DNA from: Rhodococcus sp. SGAir0479
Lineage (GTDB): Bacteria > Actinomycetota > Actinomycetes > Mycobacteriales > Mycobacteriaceae
Direction: 5' to 3'
Length of the DNA stretch: 64,000 nucleotides
Assembly (NCBI RefSeq): GCF_005484805.1
Contig: NZ_CP039432.1
Span: 2,790,001-2,854,000 of the forward strand
Position numbers and translations under genes: made by a program. Within the stretch, counting starts at the first letter, position 1; every line of letters begins with the position of its first letter. Under the pieces are notes generated by a model. The model ran no database searches. It was not told the origin of the DNA and saw nothing but the letters and a program-made list of their open reading frames with translations. This document shows, piece by piece, positions 37,688 to 40,518 of this stretch.

Positions 37688-37798
37688 GATCGAACTCCCT
37701 GTCTGTGCGTGCCCACCGAGTTTGCCTGCCACGTCCTTTTCGACCTTCCTGCCCGCCCTCCTTCCAACCGCACGGTCGATACCGCTACTATCGGCGGA

Positions 37799-37901
37799 GG
37801 TCATGAGTGCCAGCGTCAAGCCCCGGCTCGCTGGTCGGCAACCCTCCAACCGCGGTGGGGTGCCCCGGGTGATGACCAGGTCTTCCGGCGAGAGCCGGAG
37901 G
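37799..37901 (+). promoter_or_regulatory. SAM riboswitch, SAM-IV type, upstream of metZ
   Basis: The S-adenosylmethionine aptamer fold of the SAM-I/SAM-IV clan is visible. P1 is GGTCAT (37799-37804) with ATGACC (37872-37877). P2 is CCAGCG (37810-37815) with CGCTGG (37829-37834), enclosing the conserved TCAAGCCCCGGCT loop. Next come GTCGGCAACC, the P3 arm with GGTGGGG, and the core GCCCCGGGTGATGACC. A 9-bp hairpin directly 3' of P1 (37881-37901, TCTTCCGGC...GCCGGAGGA) fits P5 of SAM-IV, the actinobacterial class. High SAM should lower metZ-metX expression. The class is from structure and lineage, not from a covariance search. Confidence 0.88.
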
Positions 37902-37909
37902 ACAAGCGC

Positions 37910-37929
37910 GGGTCCGCTGGGACGGACCC
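37910..37929 (+). promoter_or_regulatory. Hairpin between riboswitch and leader ORF
   Basis: GGGTCCG (37910-37916) and CGGACCC (37923-37929) form a 7-bp stem with a 6-nt loop just after the riboswitch. No T-run follows, so it may be part of the expression platform or a Rho-type/pausing element rather than a simple terminator. Confidence 0.5.
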
Positions 37930-37962
37930 ACTGACCGGGCCATGCCCCACCGGAGGTTCATC

Positions 37963-37983
37963 ATGTGTTGTTGTCACGAGTAG
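37963..37983 (+). CDS. Cysteine-rich leader peptide (6 residues) of metZ
   Basis: A minimal ORF ATG-TGT-TGT-TGT-CAC-GAG-TAG, peptide MCCCHE. GGAGG (37952-37956) sits 6 nt before the ATG, an ideal spacing. Three successive Cys codons in 6 are far from random in this GC-rich genome (TGT is the rarer Cys codon). It lies after the SAM riboswitch and 78 bp before the metZ ATG. Polycysteine upstream ORFs are known in mycobacteria as cysteine-responsive attenuators of sulfur genes. ACCGG (37949-37953), which overlaps the ribosome-binding site, can pair with CCGGT (37984-37988) just past the stop, so a ribosome halted on the Cys codons would change folding. Function is inferred. Confidence 0.62.
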   Translation: MCCCHE

Positions 37984-38061
37984 CCGGTCCCCCGAGCGCG
38001 CGCCTGCCGCTGCGCACCCTCTCATCTGCCGAACACTTCCCGAACCTGGAGTAGACGACTC

Positions 38062-39376
38062 ATGACCGAAATCACGGACGCCGCGACCGACCCGACGGCC
38101 GACTGGAGCTTCGAGACCAAGCAGGTCCACGCCGGCCAGTTGCCCGACGGCACCACCAACGCGCGTGCACTGCCGATCTTACCAGACCACGTCGTACACG
38201 TTCAACAGCACCGACCACGCGGCCGCACTGTTCGGCCTGGCCGAGCCCGGCAACATCTACACCCGCATCATGAACCCGACGCAGGATGCCGTCGAACAGC
38301 GTATCGCCGCGCTCGAGGGCGGCGTCGCGGCCCTGCTGCTCGCGTCCGGCCAGGCCGCCGAGACCTTCGCGATCCTCAACCTCGCCGAGTCGGGCGACCA
38401 CATCGTGTCGAGCCCGCGCCTGTACGGCGGCACGTACAACCTGTTCCACTACTCGCTGCGCAAGCTGGGCATCGAGGTCTCGTTCGTCGAGGACCCGGAC
38501 GACATCGAGCAGTGGCGCGCCGCCGTCCGCCCCAACACCAAGGCGTTCTACGGCGAGTCGATCTCCAACCCCCGCAACGACATCCTCGACATCCCGGGGA
38601 TCGCGCAGGTGGCGCACGAGAACGGCATCCCGCTGATCGTCGACAACACCGTCGCGAGCCCGTACCTGATCCGTCCGTTCGAGCACGGCGCCGACATCGT
38701 CGTCCACTCGGCCACCAAGTACCTCGGCGGCCACGGCACCGCGGTCGCCGGTGTGATCGTCGACGGCGGCACGTTCGACTGGACCCAGGGCCGGCACACC
38801 AACTTCACGACCGCCGACCCGAGCTACCACGGCGTGGTCTACGCCGACCTCGGCGCGCCGGCGTTCGCACTCAAGGCGCGCGTGCAGCTGCTGCGCGATC
38901 TCGGCTCGGCCATCTCGCCGTTCAACGCGTTCCTCATCTCGCAGGGCATCGAGACGCTGAGCCTGCGGATGGAGCGCCACGTCGCCAACGCGAAGGCGGT
39001 CGCCGAGTACCTCGAGGCCCGCCCGGAGGTCGCGTCGGTCTCGTACGCCGGTCTGCCGTCGTCGCCGTGGCACGAGCGTGCCAAGACGATCGCTCCGCGC
39101 GGCACCGGCGCGATCGTCGCGTTCGAGCTCGCCGGTGGTGTCGACGCGGGCAAGAAGTTCGTCAACGCGCTCACGCTGCACAGCCACGTCGCCAACATCG
39201 GTGACGTGCGCTCGCTGGTGATCCACCCGGCGTCGACCACCCACTCGCAGCTCACCCCCGAGGAGCAGCTCGCTTCGGGTGTGACTCCGGGTCTCGTCCG
39301 CCTCGCCGTGGGCATCGAGGGACTCGACGACATCATCGCCGACCTCGAAGCCGGTTTCGCGGCGGCGGCATCTTGA
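38062..39376 (+). pseudogene. metZ: O-acetylhomoserine (thiol)-lyase / O-succinylhomoserine sulfhydrylase, frameshifted by one extra T
   Basis: Forms homocysteine from activated homoserine and sulfide; PLP-dependent Cys/Met metabolism family. From ATG 38062 (GGAG 10 nt upstream) the protein reads family-like to Ile39, then loses frame at ATCTTACCAG (38176-38185). Removing one T (38179 or 38180) restores IYQTTSYTFNSTDHAAALFG and gives 437 residues. The downstream frame is intact: Tyr/Arg in NIYTRIMNPT, ASGQAAETFA, SPRLYGGTYNLF, PLIVDNTVASPYL, SATKYLGGH with the PLP Lys, and [11 protein letters not shown]. It could be expressed from GTG 38165 but without the N-terminal arm or a ribosome-binding site. 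A read error is as likely as mutation. Overlaps metX by 4 bp. Equivalent to Rv3340. Confidence 0.85.
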
Positions 39377-40518
39377 CCGTCAGCTCCGTTCGCAACGCCC
39401 GTCCGGCCGGATTCCCTCCGCCGGACGGGCAGTTGGGCTTCGTCCACATCGGCTCGGTGCAACTCGAGAACGGTGCGGTGGTGCCCGACGTCACGCTCGG
39501 CGTCCAGCGGTGGGGTGAGCTGTCCACCGAGCGGGACAACGTGATCCTGATCGAGCACGCCCTCACGGGCGACTCGCACGTGAGCGGTCCCGCCGACGAC
39601 GAGCACCCCTCCCCCGGCTGGTGGGACGGCATGATCGGGCCGGGCGCGCCGATCGACACCGACGAGTGGTGCGTGCTCGCCACCAACGTGCTCGGCGGCT
39701 GCCGCGGCTCCACCGGCCCCGGATCGCTGGCCGCGGACGGCAACTACTGGGGTTCGCGATTCCCGGAGATCACGATCCGCGATCAGGTGACCGCCGAGGT
39801 CGCGCTGGCGGATCTGCTCGGCATCGAGCGTCTCGCCGCCGTCGTCGGCGGATCGATGGGCGGCATGCGGACCCTCGAGTGGATCATCGGGTACCCCGAC
39901 CGGGTCGCCGCGGCCCTGGTTCTCGCGGTGGGCGCCCGCGCCACCGCCGACCAGATCGGCACCCAGACCACCCAGATGCAGATCATCAAGAGCGATCCCG
40001 ACTGGCAGGGCGGCGACTACCACGGCACGGGCCGGGTCCCGCGCACCGGACTGGGCCTGGCCCGCCGGATCGCGCACCTGACGTACCGCACCGAGGGCGA
40101 ACTGGATTCGCGCTTCGCCAACACCCATCAGGACGGCGAGAACCCTTGGAGCGGTGGCCGTTACGCCGTCCAGAGTTATCTCGACCATCAGGCCGACAAG
40201 CTCGTCGGCCGGTTCGATCCCGGCACCTACGTGCTGCTGAGCGAGGCGATGAACCGGCACGACGTCGGTCGCGGCCGCGGCGGTGTGGCCGCGGCGCTGG
40301 CCTCGACGGACGTGCCGGTGGTCGTCGGCGGTGTCGACTCCGATCGGCTGTACCCGCTGCGGCTGCAGCAGGAACTCGCGGACGGGCTGCCCGGCTGCGA
40401 CGGACTGCGCGTGCTCGAGTCGAAGGACGGCCACGACGGCTTCCTCACCGAGGCCGACGCGGTGGCCGAGCTGCTGAAGGAGACGATGGAGCTGTCGCGG
40501 GCGGCGCGCCGCAACTAG
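39373..40518 (+). CDS. metX: Homoserine O-acetyltransferase
   Basis: Acetylates homoserine with acetyl-CoA, making the substrate of MetZ. 381 residues, alpha/beta hydrolase fold. [14 protein letters not shown] (about residues 56-69) is the oxyanion loop, the nucleophile Ser is in [13 protein letters not shown] (about 157-169), and the Asp and His are in GVDSDRLYP (about 317-325) and SKDGHDGFL (about 352-360). The TTG start lies inside the metZ stop (TTGA), so it depends on translation through metZ. The metZ frameshift therefore matters for metX expression too. Equivalent to Rv3341 (metA). Confidence 0.93.

Follow-up and report, generated by a model that had tools for sequence, protein, structure and literature searches.

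Why should one mRNA leader carry both a riboswitch for SAM and a short reading frame rich in cysteine codons? The question arises from a single locus in the window, by which we mean the whole 64,000-nucleotide stretch of Rhodococcus DNA analysed here. The SAM aptamer, the 7-bp hairpin and the GGAGG-led six-codon ORF MCCCHE that the original prediction had placed in one leader are all present (Table 1). The gene behind them had been called metZ; it is indeed a sulfhydrylase gene, but NCBIfam models assign it to the metY type, and the O-succinylhomoserine model that usually marks MetZ reached 359 bits, below its cut-off of 510. In this assembly, the metY frame is shifted by one near 38180 (38160-38190), and the other 13 leaders of the genus are in frame; the shift may be an assembly error or a recent mutation.

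Table 1 Features of the metY-metX leader and the genes behind it, in positions of the window
Feature	Position	Strand	Basis
Possible -10 element TACTAT	37786..37791	+	Tentative reading of the sequence
SAM-IV riboswitch aptamer	37799..37914	+	RF00634, full-length match (model positions 1-116), 125.1 bits; Rfam gathering score 38
Post-aptamer hairpin GGGTCCG/CGGACCC	37910..37929 (37910-37916/37923-37929)	+	7 bp, kept through two-sided changes
Small GGGC/GCCC hairpin	37937..37947	+	Immediately 5' of the leader ORF ribosome-binding site
Leader ORF Shine-Dalgarno (SD) GGAGG	37952..37956	+	Kept in 14/14 genus leaders
Leader ORF MCCCHE, ATG TGT TGT TGT CAC GAG TAG	37963..37983	+	SD-led Cys ORF, conserved
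C-rich, G-poor spacer from leader ORF to metY ribosome-binding site	37984..38046	+	Candidate Rho-loading region
metY ribosome-binding site GGAG	38048..38051	+	Read from the sequence
metY-type bifunctional O-acetylhomoserine/O-acetylserine sulfhydrylase gene	38062..39376	+	NF005872 (NCBIfam), 804 bits over 38165-39376, cut-off 703
metX, homoserine O-acetyltransferase, next gene	39373..40518	+	NF047917, 604.9 bits, cut-off 475

This aptamer is the only SAM-IV riboswitch above the gathering score in the window and one of two in the whole genome, the second lying upstream of a gene that, from its sequence, we take to be desulfurase-like. A scan with the sigma-70 consensus gave no promoter match near the leader; TACTAT, if it is a -10 element, would possibly have transcription begin right at the aptamer's 5' boundary. 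The ATG of the leader ORF stands 48 nt past the aptamer, and 78 nt separate the end of the ORF from the metY ATG. A search for GGAGG-N4-8-ATG-TGY-TGY-TGY gave a single match in the window and none in 100 shuffles. A second in-frame ATG upstream, without an SD (37942-37962), could lengthen the leader peptide to 13 residues. This upstream ATG is out of frame in L013, and the leaders of g20 have ACG in its place, which makes the GGAGG-led ATG the conserved one of the two.

The Cys ORF is conserved. In the genus (g1), the SAM-IV metY leaders of all 14 genomes retain the SD and the start codon together with two or more Cys codons, so that no member of the genus has lost the ORF; in five of them Ser stands in for one of the three Cys (the peptides are MCCCHE, MCCCLE, MCCCRR, MCCCRT, MMCCCRR, MCSCHE, MCSCRE, MCCSPP and MCCSHH). 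Family-wide searches found SAM-IV in 144/151 genomes and MetY in 151/151. The family sample comprised 139 metY leaders from 132 of 154 genomes, leaving out all 10 of g3, the single g5, 7/10 of g4 and four others. The SAM-IV 3' motif was carried by 107 of the 139 leaders; in the 80 leaders added later, SAM-IV was recognised by the motif CAAG[CT]GC and not by the Rfam model. We called a leader long when metY starts at least 75 nt past the aptamer, and the short leaders span 42-67 nt. By this definition, 18 genera contribute the 72 long leaders and 8 genera the 35 short ones, g28 having both. The leader ORF was picked by SD strength, never by content, with a rule that also accepted GGGGG and so included L072 and L151. 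The metY starts were set by rule, with ten corrected by hand (L001, L049, L037, L052, L162, L168, L176, L224, L225 and L226).

An SD-preceded short ORF was found in 71 of the 72 long leaders, and it contains Cys in 69 of the 72 (17/18 genera), with at least two Cys in 59. A Cys ORF is missing from three of the long leaders, a g8 pair (MWYPS..) and L061 of g28. The long leaders thus have what defines a poly-Cys leader ORF, namely a short frame with conserved Cys codons ahead of sulfur genes. No SD-led short ORF was found in any of the 35 short SAM-IV metY leaders, so that eight genera have ORF-less leaders, and no Cys ORF was found in the 59 SAM-IV leaders of the desulfurase type. Among the 32 metY leaders lacking SAM-IV, seven of which belong to second metY copies, one has an SD-led ORF with at least two Cys. 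From genus to genus the peptides diverge and Cys stays, as in MSRCR, MCRDC, MRCRHC, MCRTCR, MRVRVLCCRRG and MFSHRLCCSRR. Across 49 distinct genus-peptides, Cys accounts for 119/435 codons, against 2.2% of spacer trinucleotides, in a comparison uncorrected for kinship. Most of the peptides have five to seven residues and Cys is codon 2 in 55/71; 10/71 have a single Cys, and Cys-to-Ser changes are tolerated. By eye, GATAGGCCCC or a close variant recurs 3' of the Cys codons in long leaders of g6, g14, g20, g22, g25 and g30, including some of g6 in which it lies in a different reading frame, and this stretch may be an RNA element in its own right.

The pairings that had been proposed to join the two sensors fared less well than the ORF. 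In the original prediction, the heptamer CCGGAGG, present both in the 3' strand of the riboswitch P5 and at the leader ORF ribosome-binding site, let the P5 5' strand pair with either copy. Both copies exist (37895-37901 and 37950-37956), but the repeat by itself says little, since the window holds 20 copies against 26 expected. In P5, the heptamer is found in 1/14 genus members, all of which keep the Cys ORF, and in 2/71 leaders with a uORF. The duplicated heptamer looks like a coincidence of this species, and for want of conservation we reject the shared pairing strand. A second proposed pairing, between the ORF start and a CCGGT right after the stop, is a local feature, CCGGT being present in 9/14 genus members and 9/71 of all uORF leaders. 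The larger idea survives without the shared strand: because a SAM aptamer and a maintained Cys ORF stand in one leader, a two-input leader is likely.

We also looked for the combination elsewhere. A scan of the whole collection for SD-led MCCC gave, among the matches listed, 80 loci that were inspected (L230-L309). Three have an upstream CAAG[CT]GC (Rhodococcus yunnanensis and two Nocardia), followed by metY in two of the three; the other inspected matches look mostly like chance. Inside the family, a g21 genome, probably a Nocardia (G033), has a locus (L380) where SAM-IV is followed first by an ORF that begins MCRCW.. and next by a metX-like frame. A metY copy read from the same genome (L188) has no SAM-IV motif upstream. 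The order sample held 61 genomes, 35 with SAM-IV; 25 of the 30 listed loci were read, 23 of them outside the family. In 18 of these 23, no Cys ORF precedes the first long frame. The other five, from two families, have a Cys ORF behind SAM-IV. Four are the four SAM-IV loci of f13 (L376, L384, L385 and L386), each with an SD-led Cys leader of the type ..RRHVD(L/M)MRVCS..; in the one case checked, the gene behind it encodes a family-3 solute-binding protein. To judge from these sequences, the f13 arrangement is a second, separate pairing of SAM-IV with a Cys leader. The fifth, in f4, has SAM-IV, VADRMCCRS and then metY, and is the only one of four SAM-IV metY leaders outside the family with a Cys ORF; those without are two of f3 (45-46 nt) and one of f4 (L379, 85 nt).

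The window's own genome holds a longer Cys ORF, MTDTGVRLVARRHVDLKRVCSCCCLPCGV (L356 933-1022; G000 C1 about 2244532-2244621), which contains RRHVDLKRVCS and is a peptide of the type seen in f13. It stands ahead of a gene pair made of a sulfite-reductase-like gene, presumably sirA, and a PAPS-reductase-family gene. This ORF is of the same kind as the leaders upstream of mycobacterial cys operons, as these are described in the cited passages (PMC1262725). Whether SAM-IV with a Cys ORF is a recurrent two-input module in Mycobacteriales-related actinomycetes, in which the riboswitch would license a UGU-based tRNA-Cys readout and which would have been assembled more than once (before metY, before metX and, with the longer RRHVDL-type peptide, before a solute-binding transporter gene of another family), is to us an evenly balanced proposition.

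How might the aptamer act on the ORF? The sequence GCGCGG (37906-37911) probably forms the 3' strand of the second pseudoknot in the aptamer, and the 5' strand of the post-aptamer hairpin abuts or overlaps it. In SAM-IV, this 3' strand is placed at the 3' end in the passages cited (PMC6890682). The stem GGGTCCG/CGGACCC becomes GGGCCCG/CGGGCCC in the long leaders of g6, g11, g13 and g19. No stem of at least 5 bp was found behind the aptamer in 9/72 long leaders, where the ORF closely adjoins the aptamer. Because all 35 short, uORF-less leaders have the hairpin, it belongs to the SAM-IV platform and not to the Cys part. A consensus fold built from 29 selected leaders of 7 genera recovered the small hairpin as GGG/CCC; it is mostly invariant and hence weak evidence. 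Of the strong SD-led starts found past the aptamer, that of the leader ORF comes first, and in g14, g21, g25 and g30 it is 13-16 nt past the aptamer. For both reasons, the aptamer most plausibly controls the start of the leader ORF, and the leader has the layout of a riboswitch-uORF relay, with an SD-led uORF between aptamer and gene.

We consider it probable that metY-metX has a two-input leader in which SAM-IV gates the uORF and the Cys codons sense charged tRNA-Cys, with Rho and/or masking of the metY start perhaps setting the output. SAM on the aptamer would limit ribosome entry at the leader ORF. At low SAM, the ORF would be translated, and its start-proximal UGU codons would hold the ribosome if charged tRNA-Cys were short. 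The place where the ribosome waits would then decide the output of metY, either by keeping leader RNA off the metY start site or by altering how readily Rho reaches the C-rich spacer. The enzyme predicted here yields cysteine as well as homocysteine, which leads to methionine and SAM, and the two sensors would report both end products. Since these products are natural feedback signals, metY is most likely raised when SAM and cysteine are both short.

Among the 71 leaders, 62 have spacers of at least 25 nt, and C exceeds G in all 62 (C 45.5%, G 22.9%). C is at least 1.5 times G in 54/62, against 13/62 for the first 100 nt of metY. A simple consensus scan found no terminator-like site in 37690-38070, and thus none of the terminator/antiterminator arrangement with an intrinsic terminator that makes a classical transcription attenuator. 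A C-rich spacer without an intrinsic terminator in that scan suits Rho-dependent attenuation, which has been shown for another Mycobacterium riboswitch leader (PMC12810186), and by analogy Rho may bind the spacer. Masking was assessed by folding 60 of the 71 leaders (peptides of at most 20 residues, metY at most 300 nt away). With a ribosome at the first Cys codon, the predicted masking of the metY start was lower than in a sliding-window control in 13/17 genera (Wilcoxon p 0.011), g1 being among the 13 by a margin of only 0.1 kcal/mol, and relief was predicted strongly in g20, g23 and g24. In g1 itself, a waiting ribosome left the predicted masking unlowered relative to none (mean 7.6 to 7.7 kcal/mol; 5.7 to 7.4 kcal/mol in the window's leader). 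The consensus fold of g1 and g20 together differs from that of g1 alone, and single folds vary. A duplex permutation test of leader ORF against metY start in 39 leaders, with a few ORFs mis-picked, gave no sign that cognate pairs are preferred (overall p 0.45; by genus, 0.21). Given this result, and with folding in favour in 13 genera but of no real effect in g1, we did not adopt masking by the Cys codons as a general rule for the metY start.

In six of the 71 leaders (L162, L168, L174, L106, L224 and L225), the leader ORF runs into metY, its stop and the metY start overlapping as NTGA. This suggests that the two are translationally coupled in those lineages, possibly with the opposite sign of response. 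The same overlaps lend themselves to a different account of the whole set, a SAM-gated relay through translational coupling or Rho protection in which metY is made only when the ORF is translated. Cysteine shortage would then stall ribosomes at the ORF start and lower metY, sparing sulfide for cysteine synthesis. There is a precedent in M. tuberculosis, where PPE2 expression is described as needing its uORF through such an overlap (PMC11260477), and the short distance from aptamer to ORF start in the four genera named above fits as well. Still, the other 65 ORFs end 9-293 nt ahead of metY (median 75), metY in the window has an SD of its own, and the enrichment of Cys and of UGU goes unexplained unless stalling is used. 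We regard this relay as unlikely. For the two-input leader, conservation supports the sensor well, and lineages may differ in the output step.

Codon choice bears on what the sensor reads. The Cys codons of the leader ORFs are UGU in 149 cases and UGC in 20 (88% UGU), whereas 33 long GC3-rich ORFs of the window, chosen by length and GC3 alone, have 22 UGU and 101 UGC (18% UGU), kinship being uncorrected in this comparison. Such minor, start-proximal Cys codons fit a sensor role, and the preference for UGU may come from a need for weak structure near the start codon. With UGU the minor Cys codon of the window (22/123), one might instead see the ORF purely as a device of the expression platform, slowing ribosomes constitutively whatever the cysteine supply. 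We find this improbable, as what is conserved tracks cysteine: Arg, second in frequency, shows no more than a mild enrichment (binomial p 0.03, uncorrected for kinship), Cys leader ORFs are known ahead of cys genes in Mycobacterium (PMC1262725), and a Cys leader also precedes the sulfite-reductase-like gene of this genome. That the ORF is incidental and AUGUGUUGUUGU is kept as an RNA pairing element rather than as coding sequence is hardly credible, for although nucleotides around the SD are strongly conserved within g1 and g20 and masking is predicted in some genera, the RNA varies across genera while Cys persists along with the SD, the start and a stop no more than 40 codons on, and the duplex test showed no preference for cognate pairing.

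If the two-input leader is real, SAM status and cysteine status would be computed on one and the same mRNA. Such a leader would show how a riboswitch and a leader peptide are combined to weigh two metabolites from the same pathway, and it offers a reason for the length of many SAM-IV metY leaders. The natural variants (long with a Cys ORF, short without, and those with overlapping stop and start) could separate the Rho, masking and coupling models.

Cys leader ORFs, SAM-IV riboswitches and riboswitch-uORF relays are each known already. The Cys leader ORFs of mycobacterial cys operons were reportedly the subject of Canestrari et al. (2020). They are read from leaderless mRNAs, with the start codon at the 5' end, and their Cys run, as long as no ribosome is waiting on it, masks the ribosome-binding site of the gene that follows. 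The leader studied here is not of the leaderless type, its start lying 48 nt past an aptamer behind a GGAGG, as judged from the sequence. For the mycobacterial cys operons, the cited passages describe an upstream short ORF with a run of Cys codons, propose cysteine sensing through ribosome pausing and give no conserved terminator hairpin; for the methionine operons of Actinobacteria, they report no conserved upstream RNA structures (PMC1262725). A short Cys-codon ORF ahead of sulfur genes, proposed sensing by pausing and the lack of a conserved terminator hairpin are common to both systems, but ours is SD-led, mostly five to seven residues long, has Cys directly behind the start in 55/71, is placed behind SAM-IV and is followed by metY-metX.

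On the riboswitch side, the M. avium SAM-IV is located upstream of an O-acetylhomoserine sulfhydrylase (PMC3774663), and the window shares this arrangement with a full match to RF00634. It differs from the 35 SAM-IV metY leaders of the family sample that lack the ORF in that its first strong SD-led start belongs to the Cys ORF and not to metY. The original prediction had known of no earlier description of the combination, and in the openly licensed full-text literature, as far as its accessible passages go, we likewise found no report of SAM-IV joined with a Cys leader ORF.

Other systems come close from different directions. The SAM-I riboswitch of Xanthomonas campestris also senses uncharged initiator tRNA, so that one met leader answers both SAM and a tRNA signal, as is proposed here, although the cited passages mention no leader ORF (PMC7270179). 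In Rhodobacterales, cysS is preceded by uORFC-8-2, a leader ORF with Cys codons in tandem; such codons are shared with our case, but that alphaproteobacterial system uses an intrinsic terminator, and no riboswitch is mentioned in the passages cited (PMC8632094). Similar in layout are two M. tuberculosis relays from riboswitch to uORF, B12/uPPE2 (PMC11260477) and Mbox/Rv1805A with Rho (PMC12810186), in which an SD-led uORF likewise stands between aptamer and gene and intrinsic terminators are scarce. Their uORF codons are not taken, in the cited passages, as a second metabolite sensor. The uORF1 of the Mbox leader has rare Cys codons that are read there as slow translation (PMC12810186), and it is perhaps also a Cys-sensing ORF behind a riboswitch.
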